A DNA stretch of 64,000 nucleotides, taken from positions 2,368,001-2,432,000 of the forward strand of contig NZ_CP016808.1 in assembly GCF_002741035.1 (NCBI RefSeq), given 5' to 3'. How positions within the stretch are numbered: position 1 is the stretch's first letter; each line of letters starts with the position of its first letter. This DNA is from Paenibacillus sp. BIHB 4019. Its GTDB lineage: Bacteria > Bacillota > Bacilli > Paenibacillales > Paenibacillaceae. A model generated the notes under the pieces. That model ran no database searches. It had not been told where the DNA came from and saw only the letters and a program-made list of their open reading frames with translations. Of this stretch, positions 52,489 through 56,586 are shown in pieces. The translations under genes and the position numbers were made by a program.

Positions 52489-52905
52489 ATGCGTGAGCCA
52501 GTCACTTATTCCGTAGTCATTCCTGTGTATAATGATGAGCAAATGCTTTACGACACCTACAAGCGGCTAAAACGAATTATTCCGCCCATTGGCGAGAATT
52601 ACGAACTGATTTTTGTAAATGACAACAGCACCGACCGCTCAGCAGATATGCTTCGAGTCTTTTGTGCAGCCGATATTCGGGTACGTGCGATCCATTTCGC
52701 CAGCAGCTTTGGCTATGAAGCTGCTGTTGCCGCAGGAGCCGACCATGCCTCGGGCGAACAGAAGATCGTCATGGAGGTATCTGACCGCTTCCGCAGCGTT
52801 AGCGCAGGATTGCAAGGAGCCTCTCCGTTTTATGTTGTACGGGCTAAGGAAGGCTTTACCCATTCCCCGCTCTGGGATTTTGCTTCGGAGAGTGCTGCAT
52901 GCTAA
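52489..52905 (+). pseudogene. Remnant of a family 2 glycosyltransferase
   Basis: The first 90 residues are a clear GT-A start (YSVVIPVYNDEQMLYDTYKR; YELIFVNDNSTDRSADMLR; VRAIHFASSFGYEAAVAAGA), typical of polyprenol-phosphate sugar transferases of about 310 residues. After DHASGEQKIVM the reading frame loses the expected D-x-D metal-binding motif and DLQDPPE-type segment and ends at 138 residues with unrelated sequence. It is therefore most likely a truncated, non-functional gene. GGGAGGGGA precedes the ATG, so the fragment could still be translated. Confidence 0.75.
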
Positions 52906-52931: not shown

Positions 52932-53032
52932 AAATATAAGAATTTATAAGCTTCACCTTTATAATGGGCTTATATTTCGCCCTCGAAACGGTAGCATTGC
53001 CGCCAGATATCGGCTTCAGCCGTTTACGCTTG
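52932..53032 (+). repeat. Full copy of the ~100-bp palindromic repeat
   Basis: AAATATAAGAATTTATAAGC and GGGCTTATATTTCGCC form the AT module; CGAAACGGTAGCATTGCCGC with CGGCTTCAGCCGTTTACGC forms the GC module. It has the same length (101 bp) and order as copy 1 at 18364. It lies directly after the glycosyltransferase remnant. Confidence 0.85.
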
Positions 53033-53040
53033 TTCCCAAA

Positions 53041-53076
53041 AAATAACCCTCGCCTTATTAGGCGAGGGTTATTTTT
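53041..53076. terminator. Intrinsic terminator
   Basis: AAATAACCCTCGCC pairs with GGCGAGGGTTATTT around TTATTA, a perfect 14-bp stem with T residues after it. Confidence 0.9.
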
Positions 53077-53154
53077 AACTGGAGGGATGCCATTTATGCA
53101 TATGCGCAGGTTTGTCCTGATGTACGCCATAGAAGGACGGCGGCTGCGGTTCTG

Positions 53155-53901
53155 TTATTGTTCAATATAAAAGCCGAATGAGTGCAGGTTGTCCGCGTTA
53201 TTGGTCATGGTTAGCGCTTCCGGCAAATCGATTTTGTCAAAGGCGTTGTAGTAAGGAGTTCCAGCAAGCAGCACAATAGCAATGGCTATAGCGAGCCTGC
53301 GTACGAACCGTTCGCTTGGGCGGCGATTAAGCTTCGCCTTCGGCAAGGTCACTCTGCTGCTGCGTTCGCCATGAATCATCCAGAGGATGGCAGCGGCGAA
53401 GCCAAGCATGGAAAGCGGAATAGTGAGCGGCATCGAATGCAGCGATACGGCGACCGATAAGGTTAGGTAAAAGATCGTTAGCGTACAGAGCGACAACAGC
53501 TGGTAGGGCAAAATGAATGCGGGCTCTGAAGCGCGATACAGCATGCGCACAGGCAATGGATCGCTGGACTTCCGTCCTGTGTTTTTCCGCATTCTAAGCA
53601 GCTTTGGCATGCTTCTGACCCACAGCAGCGCTAGTGACAGAGTCAAGATCGGTACACAGATAAGCATGCCCAAATCATAATCCGGAGGGAGCTTGACGGC
53701 CATGGTGACGACTCCGCCCAATGCGGCTGCTGTTGGGATGGACAGCACAATTGTCCAAATGAACAAGTTTTTGGCACGCTGGTGCAGCTGCTGCTCGGAT
53801 TTGCTGTAGAGCAGGGAGGAGGCCTTATTGCCGGCAATCCAAGACAACAGCAGCGCTAGGAATAAACAACCAAGCGTAAGATGAACCAAGGTGATATACA
53901 A
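53155..53901 (-). CDS. Integral membrane protein of unknown function
   Basis: This 248-residue protein has about six hydrophobic segments (LTLGCLFLALLLSWIAG, LFIWTIVLSIPTAAALGGVV, MLICVPILTLSLALLWV, LCTLTIFYLTLSVAVSL, IPLSMLGFAAAILWMI, LAIAIAIVLLAGTPYYNAF) and a short polar C-terminus. I do not recognise the family. It is divergent from the yidC leader region. Confidence 0.8.
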   Translation of the reverse strand: MYITLVHLTLGCLFLALLLSWIAGNKASSLLYSKSEQQLHQRAKNLFIWTIVLSIPTAAALGGVVTMAVKLPPDYDLGMLICVPILTLSLALLWVRSMPKLLRMRKNTGRKSSDPLPVRMLYRASEPAFILPYQLLSLCTLTIFYLTLSVAVSLHSMPLTIPLSMLGFAAAILWMIHGERSSRVTLPKAKLNRRPSERFVRRLAIAIAIVLLAGTPYYNAFDKIDLPEALTMTNNADNLHSFGFYIEQ

Positions 53902-54021
53902 AATAGCTTACCTCCCAGTATAATAATAACTAGATCTATTTTATCGCCTGCGAGCTCCTCGCTATAACAGTCTCTGGTTCAGGTAGTACCTAGACTTTAG
54001 ACGAGGGAATATCAGGAATGG

Positions 54022-54522
54022 TTGCTTTATACTACAAGAGTAACCGATTTGAGTCTGGAGGTGAAGAAGCTGCTCGAGCTGCATGATATTATACCGTATT
54101 TTTTCTCTGTAAGCATTATCTGCACGTTCGCTTATGCAGCGTATTTCACTTTTCATGCTGCAAGCGAGCCGTCCCGCTGGTCGAAGGACAAGGTCCATAC
54201 GCCAGCACCTGAGCGTATTTTGCCAACGGTTCAACGGGCTCATACCGTTGCGCTCTGGCTTGTACGAAAAGTTAAAAGAAAAGAAGCGCCTGATGGTGAT
54301 CCCACAGATTGCAGCTCCTCGTTTGTGAAGCAACATCCAAACAAACGAGGAGGATATATATGTTATCTAAATATACAATGGAAATGCTTAAAAAATACCG
54401 CTTTATCCTTATTATCGGACTGCTGCTCATCATTAGCGGCTGTGGTGCGCCGAATGGAACGATTGATTCAGCGACACCAGGATTTTTCAACCATTACGTC
54501 GTTTTCCCCATCTCTTATTTAA
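54022..54522 (+). CDS. Putative MifM-like arrest-peptide leader upstream of yidC
   Basis: This open frame holds one membrane segment (about residues 23-45, IIPYFFSVSIICTFAYAAYF), a basic region (SRWSKDKV) and the stretch WLVRKVKRKEAPDGDPTD (residues 79-96). B. subtilis MifM, the nascent-chain sensor upstream of yidC2, has from memory the same plan: one N-terminal membrane segment, then W-IRKVFR...SPVNDEED as stalling region. The start is uncertain (TTG 54022, TTG 54049 or GTG 54061). The frame does not stop before yidC but runs out of frame 163 nt into it, to 54522. A role as a translational sensor is inferred; only experiment can show stalling. Confidence 0.55.
   Translation: MLYTTRVTDLSLEVKKLLELHDIIPYFFSVSIICTFAYAAYFTFHAASEPSRWSKDKVHTPAPERILPTVQRAHTVALWLVRKVKRKEAPDGDPTDCSSSFVKQHPNKRGGYICYLNIQWKCLKNTALSLLSDCCSSLAAVVRRMERLIQRHQDFSTITSFSPSLI
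54315..54352 (+). promoter_or_regulatory. Hairpin sequestering the yidC Shine-Dalgarno sequence
   Basis: CTCCTCGTTTGT (54315-54326) pairs perfectly with ACAAACGAGGAG (54341-54352) around a 14-nt loop. The second arm contains most of the GAGGAGG ribosome binding site of yidC (ATG at 54360, 6-base spacing). Translation of yidC should need this stem to be opened. A ribosome stalled on the leader frame around codons 93-97 (54298-54312) would reach into the first arm and free the site. Confidence 0.85.
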
Positions 54523-55220
54523 TTCAACACATTGCGCAGTTTTTTAACGACAGTTTTGGCATGGCGATTATTGCGATTACGTTGCTTATCCGTCTGGCCC
54601 TGCTTCCGCTGATGCTTCGCCAATCCAAGAGCCAGCAGGTGATGAAGCAGAAGATGAGCGTTATGCAGCCGCAGCTGAACCAGATCAAGGAAAAATACAA
54701 AAATGACAAATCGCCTGAAGCACAGTCGAAAATGCAGAAGGAAACGATGGCGCTGTACGGCGAGCATAAGTTTAATCCGCTTGCCATTGGGTGCCTTCCA
54801 ATGCTCATTCAACTGCCGATTTTGTCAGGACTGTATTATGCGATCAAAATGACGCCGGAGCTGGCGCAGCATTCCTTCCTTTGGTTCCAACTGGGCGCGC
54901 CGGACCACATCCTGCCGTTTCTCGCCGCTGCTATCTATTATGTGCAGTTCCGCGTGTCTCAAATCGGAATTGATCCTGCCCAGCAAAAACAGATGGCGCT
55001 GTTCGGTTACATTTCACCGATCATGATGGGCATTTTCTCTTTTACCGCGCCTGCTGCTGTACCTTTGTATTGGGTTGTTGGCGGCGTATTTATGATTTTG
55101 CAGACGATGCTTTCCAAGCGGCTTTACCCAATGCCGACAGTGCCGGTCGCTTCGGCAGTTGAGGCCGCGAAGCCAGCGCCAGTGAAATCGAAAAACAAGA
55201 AGCTGCCAGCGAAATCTTAA
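54360..55220 (+). CDS. yidC: Membrane protein insertase YidC/Oxa1 (lipoprotein form)
   Basis: This 286-residue insertase has a signal peptide with lipobox ISGC (Cys near residue 27) and five membrane segments. A cytoplasmic loop rich in Lys/Gln follows the first core segment (MLRQSKSQQVMKQKMSVMQP). The conserved core Arg is in LLIRLALLPLM, and FNPLAIGCLPMLIQLPILSG and MGIFSFTAPAAVPLYWVVGG are typical. It inserts membrane proteins with or without SecYEG. The RBS is locked in a hairpin and a leader frame precedes it, so its translation is probably regulated. Gram-positive genomes usually carry a second, constitutive copy (SpoIIIJ type) elsewhere. Confidence 0.95.
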   Translation: MLSKYTMEMLKKYRFILIIGLLLIISGCGAPNGTIDSATPGFFNHYVVFPISYLIQHIAQFFNDSFGMAIIAITLLIRLALLPLMLRQSKSQQVMKQKMSVMQPQLNQIKEKYKNDKSPEAQSKMQKETMALYGEHKFNPLAIGCLPMLIQLPILSGLYYAIKMTPELAQHSFLWFQLGAPDHILPFLAAAIYYVQFRVSQIGIDPAQQKQMALFGYISPIMMGIFSFTAPAAVPLYWVVGGVFMILQTMLSKRLYPMPTVPVASAVEAAKPAPVKSKNKKLPAKS

Positions 55221-55234
55221 CCCGGATATGGAAT

Positions 55235-55277
55235 AGACGCTCCAGAGGGCTCTCAACCCTCGGGGCGTTTGTTTTTA
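55235..55277 (+). terminator. Intrinsic terminator of yidC
   Basis: GACGCTCCAGAGGG pairs imperfectly with CCCTCGGGGCGTTT around CTCTCAA, followed by GTTTTTATTTTTT. Confidence 0.85.
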
Positions 55278-55413
55278 TTTTTTGAAGGCATAAGAAAACG
55301 ATGGGCAGAAGATTATAAGTCGAAAATCCTATAAAGCACTTTATTATGATACAATAAGTGTAAGGTTTAGTTTGGCATGCGGACAATGGAATGGAAAAAG
55401 GAGGCCTTGCACG

Positions 55414-56112
55414 ATGATTAAGCGTTATCCTGCGAACGAGCGGAACTTTTTTGATATTGGTTGGTTGAGGGGCTCACGCAGCTTCTCATTCGGTGATTAT
55501 TATGATCCCGATAACGCTCAGTTCGGCGTCATGCGTGTATGCAACGAAGATGAGATTGCGCCGGGCCGCGGCTTCGGAGCGCATCCTCATAGCGACATGG
55601 AAATTGTGACCATTGTGTTGAAAGGCCGCCTCAAGCATGAGGATAATTTGGGCAATATGGAGGTTACCTCTGCGGGAGAAATCCAGCGAATGACAGCGGG
55701 CTCCGGCATTGTCCATGCAGAATACAATGATTCGGAAACCGAAGAAGGACATTTTCTGCAGCTGTGGTTTATGCCTCGCGAGCGCGGGCTGACCCCTTCC
55801 TATGAGGTGCATCGGTACGATCAGGAGAAGCTGGTCAATGCTTTTCTGCCGATTGTCACGCCGGAAGGAACGAATGGCACAGCGATGATTCATCAGGACA
55901 TGTCGATTCATTTGGGCCGCGTTGAGGCAGGGAAACGTTTGTATTACAGCCAAAAGGCAGGCCGGCGTGTATTCCTCATGCTGATTGAGGGCGCTGCCGA
56001 TGTGAACAATCTTGATATGGTGGCGAAGGACAGCCTTCGTGCGGAGTTTGAGCCGGAAATTCTGATCAAGGCGAAGGAAGATACATTCGTCATGCTCATT
56101 GATATGCCATAA
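55414..56112 (+). CDS. Pirin-family bicupin protein
   Basis: This 232-residue cytoplasmic protein has the pirin N-terminal cupin with metal ligands in FGAHPHSDMEIVTIVLKG and GSGIVHAEYND, and a second degenerate cupin (about 150-232). Some pirins have quercetinase activity; the natural role is unclear. The ATG at 55414 follows AAAAGGAGG. It is 33 bp upstream of the next small gene and likely cotranscribed with it. Confidence 0.92.
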   Translation: MIKRYPANERNFFDIGWLRGSRSFSFGDYYDPDNAQFGVMRVCNEDEIAPGRGFGAHPHSDMEIVTIVLKGRLKHEDNLGNMEVTSAGEIQRMTAGSGIVHAEYNDSETEEGHFLQLWFMPRERGLTPSYEVHRYDQEKLVNAFLPIVTPEGTNGTAMIHQDMSIHLGRVEAGKRLYYSQKAGRRVFLMLIEGAADVNNLDMVAKDSLRAEFEPEILIKAKEDTFVMLIDMP

Positions 56113-56145
56113 GGACGGAAGTTTCTGCGCGAGGAGGAGAAAGCG

Positions 56146-56478
56146 ATGAAGGAAACGTTATTAATCAAGCATGCGGTTGGAGGAAGAACCTTTGTAGATT
56201 CCAGCAAGCATGGCGTTCATTATCACATTGAGCAGGCTGCTGATTTGTGGGCGTTCACGGTCACTGTGCCGCCGGAGCTTGATTTGGCTAACCTGCTTGC
56301 GTGGAAGGAAGAACTGAACGTCTTTCTTTTCCAAGAGCATGAGGATAAGCCAACGGTCAAAATTTGGTTCTATGTACAGGAACAATCCGTCAGCTTTCAA
56401 GCTAATGAACGCAAGCTTGCGTTCAAGGCGAAGGCGATGATTGAATATATTCCACACAATTACGGCTACAAGCTGTAA
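56146..56478 (+). CDS. Small protein of unknown function
   Basis: This 110-residue soluble protein starts MKETLLIKHAVGGRTFVDSS and has a likely alpha/beta fold. No motif is recognised. GAGGAGGAG precedes the ATG, and the short gap to the pirin gene suggests one transcript. Confidence 0.75.
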   Translation: MKETLLIKHAVGGRTFVDSSKHGVHYHIEQAADLWAFTVTVPPELDLANLLAWKEELNVFLFQEHEDKPTVKIWFYVQEQSVSFQANERKLAFKAKAMIEYIPHNYGYKL

Positions 56479-56492
56479 AGCAGGGCCAAGCA

Positions 56493-56586
56493 AAAACGGC
56501 TGTCGCCGTCCTCTAGCGGCGCGGCGCGTGTCAGTCCGAGAAATATAAGCTAAGTATAAAGAGAAGACTTATACTTTCTTATATTT
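56493..56586 (-). repeat. Inverted full copy of the ~100-bp palindromic repeat
   Basis: Read on the minus strand this is almost identical to copy 2 at 18465-18562: I count about four mismatches over some 90 bp, through both the AT module and the GC module. It is the only full copy in the opposite orientation. The remaining 56590-56800 stretch before the YdjO-like gene shows no gene; it may be a long leader. Confidence 0.85.

Follow-up and report, generated by a model that had tools for sequence, protein, structure and literature searches.

A short leader frame directly upstream of a second yidC gene (yidC2) in Paenibacillus sp. BIHB 4019 most probably encodes a YidC-monitoring arrest peptide that would work like MifM of B. 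subtilis, with the ribosome predicted to stall near D80/C81; we put the probability of this reading at about 0.85. An earlier note on this DNA had proposed a MifM-like leader controlling this gene, and had set the conservation of the frame and of the arrest segment among relatives as the point on which the proposal could fall. Both are kept, and the proposal, which survived this attempt at refutation, is the best-supported reading, the arrest itself being predicted. The position of the leader, its target (a second YidC), a covarying hairpin, protein-level selection that ends at this hairpin, a fixed spacing and a single clade of targets are all observed. Positions refer to the window, that is, the whole 64,000-nt stretch that was analysed.

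The leader frame and its predicted arrest segment

The open frame at 54022..54522 (+) lies directly 5' of yidC (ATG at 54360) and encodes, as the earlier note described, a single hydrophobic segment followed by a basic stretch and then WLVRKVKRKEAPDGDPTDC. The TTG at 54022, which had been taken as the leader start, is merely the earliest start codon of the stop-free frame and was rejected, since relatives have a downstream start in common, which in the window is the CTG at 54070. This CTG is preceded by a Shine-Dalgarno sequence (GGAGG, 54057..54061, +), with AAGGGAGGTG-like sites at the equivalent place in relatives, at a spacing of 8 nt, which is also the usual one in relatives. In the 36 loci with a scripted start, we counted 24 TTG, 8 ATG, 3 CTG and 1 GTG (TTG or ATG in 32/36), the CTG starts being those of the window and its two closest relatives. 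Among 80 named loci, the starts were TTG in 61, ATG in 17 and CTG in 1, with none found in 1; the CTG belongs to P. algorifonticola, whose leader is 99% identical.

Delimited by this homologous start and by pN/pS, the coding part under protein-level selection runs from the CTG to Cys81 (LLELHDIIPYFFSVSIICTF...WLVRKVKRKEAPDGDPTDC; 54070..54312, +). An N-terminal membrane segment occupies residues 7-25 (54088..54144, +; Kyte-Doolittle mean 1.62 over 19 residues), and a hydrophobic segment is present in all 36 leaders with a scripted start, with an N-terminal tail charge of -2 or -3 in 36/36. The sequence suggests an N-out/C-in topology, which is drawn from the short acidic N-tail (-2), the flank 3' of the membrane segment having no clear positive charge. 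No family in NCBIfam (searched with the whole overlapping frame) or Pfam matched the leader, and the names shown among its 45 protein matches were all 'hypothetical' or 'uncharacterized' protein, many matches being unnamed.

Selection on the leader codons was estimated from 22 hand-picked pairs out of 36 leaders. The pN/pS ratio was 0.095 in the membrane part (residues 2-30), 0.36 in the linker (residues 31-62) and 0.071 in the arrest segment W63-C81 (residues 63-81), and reached 1.05 past the Cys, where the hairpin begins (residues 82-96). Changes at codon positions 1/2/3 numbered 18/10/110 in the arrest segment and 49/45/43 past the Cys, and twelve disjoint pairs gave 9/8/63 and 28/27/24, respectively. 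Taken together, the codon-position and pN/pS patterns indicate that selection acts on the protein as far as Cys81 and on the RNA beyond it. The conservation that had been sought over residues 74-97, where 97 was the earlier numbering of the Cys, is therefore present at the protein level up to that residue, and what follows it is conserved as RNA, not as protein.

The predicted arrest segment W63-C81 (54256..54312, +) was defined by its near-invariant residues and by alignment to MifM. R70, K71, P74 and C81 are invariant in 36/36 aligned rows, and K69 is present in 35/36. Cys81 is encoded by two codons (TGC in 26 rows, TGT in 10), which indicates that it is kept as an amino acid, while the constancy of the Ser84 codon (TCG in 34/36 rows) indicates that it is kept as RNA. 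The motif had previously been centred on the Trp, a choice that the relatives do not bear out: the Trp place holds Trp in 31 and Arg in 5 of the 36 aligned leaders, and Trp in 41, Arg in 21 and other residues in 18 of the 80 loci of the genome scan, so the Trp was ruled out as the conserved core. The basic core in these 80 loci is KRK in 62, RRR in 11 and RRK in 7; they were found by patterns, one of them containing KRK[ED][AS]P, and the core and the Pro are partly ascertained there. The Cys was in neither of the patterns used and follows the motif in 79/80 of the named loci, with a Tyr in L070. As read from the sequences, the distinctive marks of these leaders are [KR]R[KR]-x-[AS]P, a nearly invariant Cys, a Trp that is often absent and mostly non-AUG starts.

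The first acidic residue after the Pro lies 12 residues past the Trp in our own count also. PDGDP (residues 74-78) contains two acidic and no basic residues, and its local charge of -0.4, obtained by our own arithmetic and not with the program of the survey authors, lies below the -0.3 that a published MifM survey set for the minimum local charge of a 5-residue window within residues 70-100 (PMC10987492). From the end of the membrane segment to D80, the predicted stall site, the median distance in the 36 leaders is 54 residues; a spacer of this size is a feature of the MifM family, with a reported median from membrane segment to stall of 54 (PMC10987492), the segment ends possibly being set differently in the two counts. 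D80 aligns with MifM D89, which occupies the P site at the first MifM stall site (PMC4423224), and in the predicted stall the P-site and A-site codons would be those of D80 (54307-54309, +) and C81 (54310-54312, +), respectively.

A hairpin over the yidC2 Shine-Dalgarno sequence

A 12-bp hairpin at 54315-54352, which the earlier note did not mention, takes in all but one of the five bases of the Shine-Dalgarno sequence of yidC2 (GGAGG, 54349..54353, +), as located by sequence and fold. Its 5' arm, CTCCTCGTTTGT (54315..54326, +), starts 2 nt past the Cys codon, and its 3' arm, ACAAACGAGGAG (54341..54352, +), is defined by the 12-bp fold and by covariation. The 86-nt stretch with the hairpin has a folding energy of -23.7 kcal/mol (z -3.9). 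Across 34 of the 38 YidC2 loci (the near-copy L005 and the diverged L030, L037 and L040 were left out), double changes were found at 4/12 pairs, in 13 cells, and 0/500 shuffles scored as high; kinship among sequences can also give double changes, but slid partners scored far lower. In single folds with 75 nt upstream, at least three of the five Shine-Dalgarno bases were paired upstream in 35/38 loci, L018, L027 and L038 having just one or two of them paired, and the stem is broken in L040. The median hairpin z was -3.2 in 50-nt folds, which clip the hairpin of L037, strong with 75 nt. An exact stem of at least 6 ending at the Shine-Dalgarno sequence was present in 77 of the 79 loci tested among the 80 named ones. 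Masking of the Shine-Dalgarno sequence by a hairpin is a MifM-family feature, and the B. subtilis-type control locus folds likewise. The core TCGTT (or TCATT) sits 6 nt 3' of the Cys codon in 35/36 loci.

By the toeprint rule, a ribosome reaches about 16 nt downstream. With D80 in the P site it would cover 54307-54322, and with this 8/12 bases of the hairpin 5' arm. By analogy with MifM and its kin, the leader would be translated from the CTG at 54070, and its N-terminal segment would be a YidC-type substrate. Under sufficient insertase activity, insertion would pull the chain, translation would go on, and the hairpin would then re-form and hide the yidC2 Shine-Dalgarno sequence. When insertion is slow, WLVRKVKRKEAPDGDPTDC in the exit tunnel would hold the ribosome at about D80/C81, whose front edge over the hairpin 5' arm would free the Shine-Dalgarno sequence, and YidC2 would be made. 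Arrest, its site, its release by YidC-dependent insertion and the opening of the hairpin for YidC2 synthesis are thus all predicted by this analogy.

The leader frame continues across the hairpin into yidC2 (54313..54522, +; stop at 54520-54522), with no protein-level selection at residues 82-96. In 35/36 loci the frame passes the yidC2 start, ending 28-160 nt inside yidC2, and its offset from the yidC2 frame is never zero in these 35 loci, so no leader-YidC2 fusion is made. Inspected by eye, the 5 B. subtilis-type leaders have their stop 5' of yidC2, while among the other Bacilli some leaders run into yidC2 (L139, L141, L142, L146, L156) and others stop before it (L143-L145, L147, L157, L158, L173-L175). 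In the stretch that separates the Cys from the yidC2 start, stop codons were somewhat less frequent than expected from shuffles: the chance of finding none averaged 0.70 per locus, with a product of 0.0012 over 16 chosen representatives whose independence is incomplete. It is conceivable, but rather doubtful, that the MifM switch has a separate mode here, in which arrest would occur at a single site and need cysteinyl-tRNA in the A site, the basic-Pro-acidic core would act without the Met-Asn and Arg-Ile contacts, and run-through would clear the yidC2 initiation region and tighten repression. That run-through tightens repression after release is a guess, and its occurrence in other Bacilli leaders lowers the odds for such a mode.

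Further upstream, a 138-aa frame at 52489-52905 (+) matches the first half of a glycosyltransferase family 2 profile (positions 1-85 of 168) and then diverges; it is probably a truncated or decayed gene. Between this frame and a divergent membrane protein gene lies a strong symmetric terminator-like hairpin at about 53039-53078 (AATAACCCTCGCC TTATTA GGCGAGGGTTATT). No Rfam family reached its gathering score within 53000-56500, and three sub-gathering matches at 53005-53148, which overlap this terminator-like hairpin, were taken as chance.

The YidC2 target, kinship with MifM and occurrence

The target, yidC2 (54360..55220, +; MLSKYTMEMLKKYRF...), encodes a second YidC insertase and belongs to the YidC2 clade (support 98/98). 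The genome has two yidC genes, with the housekeeping copy in the order dnaA-rpmH-rnpA-yidC-jag-mnmE, away from the copy in the window; a leader that precedes the secondary yidC while the primary one lies elsewhere is a feature of the MifM family. In a YidC tree of 28 rows, 16 leader-bearing YidC2 fell on one side of the 98/98 branch, two of them standing behind B. subtilis-type MifM, and 10 other YidC copies, which we labelled primary with a neighbourhood check that covered the genome of the window, fell on the opposite side. The leaderless yidC of G134 (L159) also falls within the YidC2 side, a position that points to loss of the switch. A pirin/quercetinase-like gene (Pfam Pirin 4e-33) lies 3' of yidC2 at 55414-56112 (+).

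A profile of 20 leaders searched against the PDB ranked MifM (3J9W) second of 177,635 (E 0.17), behind the unrelated 6egc. Alignment with hhalign to five B. subtilis-type leaders gave P 0.0011 and a probability of 19.8%, with W, RKV, R, P and the acidic end colinear, and alignment to leaders of other Bacilli gave P 1.3e-10 on rows preselected by similarity (4/5 found with the leader profile at E < 4e-4, the fifth at 0.005). A search with a MifM fragment in 398 genomes, several with the leader among them, matched no Paenibacillus leader; it returned 7/398 genomes at E up to 0.01, five of them with Bacillus-type leaders, and the matches L154 and L155 were not leaders.

Like MifM (YqzJ) of B. subtilis, the leader stands before a second yidC (yqjG = yidC2) of the same YidC2 clade and combines an N-terminal membrane segment, a spacer of about 54 residues and a hairpin on the yidC2 Shine-Dalgarno sequence. 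It also has the order W, RKV, R, P, acidic end; MifM W73-I74 corresponds to W63 followed by Leu/Val in the window, the Trp being absent in 5/36 and 39/80 leaders. In uL22, Met90 of B. subtilis permits MifM stalling (PMC4423224), and uL22 here has Met at that place. R69, I70, M80 and N81 are essential for MifM stalling in B. subtilis (PMC4423224), and the first three are invariant in the five Bacillus-type loci, N81 not. Unlike MifM, the leader has T59-V60 for R69-I70 and K71-E72 for M80-N81 at the aligned places, so it is not a B. subtilis-type MifM, although the published definition of the MifM group makes no use of these four residues (PMC10987492). It further differs from MifM, with its DEED-Ala, in having scattered acids (D-P-T-D for DEED) and a nearly invariant Cys, in a Trp that is often absent, in starts that are mostly TTG (here CTG) and, in 35/36 leaders, in the lack of a stop before yidC2, where the B. 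subtilis-type loci stop 5' of the gene.

The earlier note took MifM to be confined to a narrow group of Bacillus, which is not so: in a 2024 survey of 30,175 genomes, clustering and acidic charge served to identify 572 MifM sequences from 592 Firmicutes genomes (PMC10987492). The main text of the survey makes no mention of Paenibacillus, and the Paenibacillus leaders may well already be within its MifM set, unnamed. Among open PMC papers, we found none joining MifM, YidC and Paenibacillus, or MifM and Bacillales; Paenibacillus with 'arrest peptide' led to the topic of motility only; no title among the matches listed for Paenibacillus, 'ribosome stalling' and YidC concerned such a leader; and for YidC2, yqzJ and MifM homologues only YidC2 was present among the matches listed.

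Other arrest leaders share parts of this arrangement. CliM (uC_KYxIW) of Clostridia is an arrest peptide before a second yidC that was shown to monitor YidC (PMC13183943); the Paenibacillus leader, known from sequence, likewise precedes a second yidC, but the K-Y-x-I-W motif occurs in 0/36 leaders. ApcA of Actinobacteria is a membrane leader that precedes a secondary yidC and has a conserved C-terminal part (PMC7897499); the present leader resembles it in all this, but ApcA belongs to a different phylum and has a RAPG arrest motif (PMC10987492). With SecM, whose hairpin lies over the secA Shine-Dalgarno sequence (PMC10987492), and with VemP, the leader has in common the control of the next gene by an arrested chain, predicted here, whereas SecM and VemP have Sec pathway targets, longer spacers and other arrest motifs.

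Sixty genomes were screened by YidC2 similarity alone, which gave 38 loci with the second type at E < 1e-88: the one in the window, those in 34/36 other genomes of the genus and those in 3/23 of the same order. All 38 have the leader, 36 with a scripted start, together with L030, also found by profile search, and L037, recognised by eye only. Two genomes of the genus (G002 and G024) lack both yidC2 and the leader. The scan of named genomes confirmed 94 loci, of which 80 were kept, with titles reading Paenibacillus except for one 'Paenibacillaceae bacterium' and two 'Bacillus sp.'. A class-wide profile search gave matches in 92/250 genomes at E up to 1; we examined 25 matches down to E 0.005 (that of the window included) and also L148 (E 0.196), which on reading is not a leader. 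Leaders of the same plan stand 5' of YidC2 in other Bacilli families, some found via the profile, and 6/20 further yidC loci chosen by YidC alone have one, with none seen by eye in 14, including L169, a housekeeping copy beside rnpA. The loci L159-L172, except L160, L163 and L169, are second-yidC loci of other Bacilli families with no recognisable leader upstream. In a distant relative (L138, G157), the acidic codons of the leader, GAGGATGATG, seem also to form the yidC2 Shine-Dalgarno sequence and start, so that leader and target overlap.

Alternative readings and significance

We consider it likely, from sequence comparison, that the leader is a diverged MifM by common descent. The same circuit might instead have arisen independently in Paenibacillus before yidC2, with a mere resemblance to MifM. 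The pairwise evidence of homology to B. subtilis-type MifM is marginal, four essential MifM residues are unmatched, and elsewhere arrest peptides of unrelated origin have evolved upstream of yidC or sec genes (PMC10987492, PMC13183943), all of which would suit a separate origin. We nevertheless regard it as unlikely, because the 16 leader-bearing YidC2 tested, two B. subtilis-type targets among them, fall into a single clade, leaders of the W[ILM]...R..D type stand at the equivalent place in other Bacilli families, and the MifM alignment, weak as it is, is colinear. With all these targets in one YidC2 clade, descent from one leader 5' of one YidC2 is the simpler account. The earlier note had left the choice between a new member and an independent invention; the former stands, as a MifM-like member, and the latter has been demoted from a first choice by the YidC tree.

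The two remaining alternatives dispense with arrest. Strong protein-level selection on the membrane segment (pN/pS 0.095) would also be expected if the leader encoded a small, conserved membrane protein that has its own function, and passage of the ribosome could by itself open the hairpin, which would merely couple translation to yidC2. Such a protein should not, however, lack a conserved C-terminus, as this one does with a frame that enters yidC2 in 35/36 loci, nor should its selection end at one fixed point, 6 nt 5' of the hairpin core. Both features fit a stalled chain and not a finished protein, and we hold this explanation improbable. The strong, covarying hairpin could be a thermosensor or a protein-binding site, with the leader frame incidental, but 110 of the 138 changes in the arrest segment fall at third codon positions and Rfam has no family there at gathering score, which makes an RNA-only explanation very improbable indeed.

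A YidC-monitoring arrest leader akin to MifM would add a large genus to the range of a feedback switch already known from experiment; in the records of this genus the leader, where it has a name, is 'hypothetical' or 'uncharacterized'. Two specific departures from MifM can be checked, namely the Cys predicted to occupy the A site and the absence of a stop codon, and the leader could yield reporters of YidC activity for Paenibacillus. The alignment constitutes a natural series of arrest sequences that are apparently functional despite changes at residues critical in B. subtilis, and with it the contacts that an arrest peptide really needs become testable.
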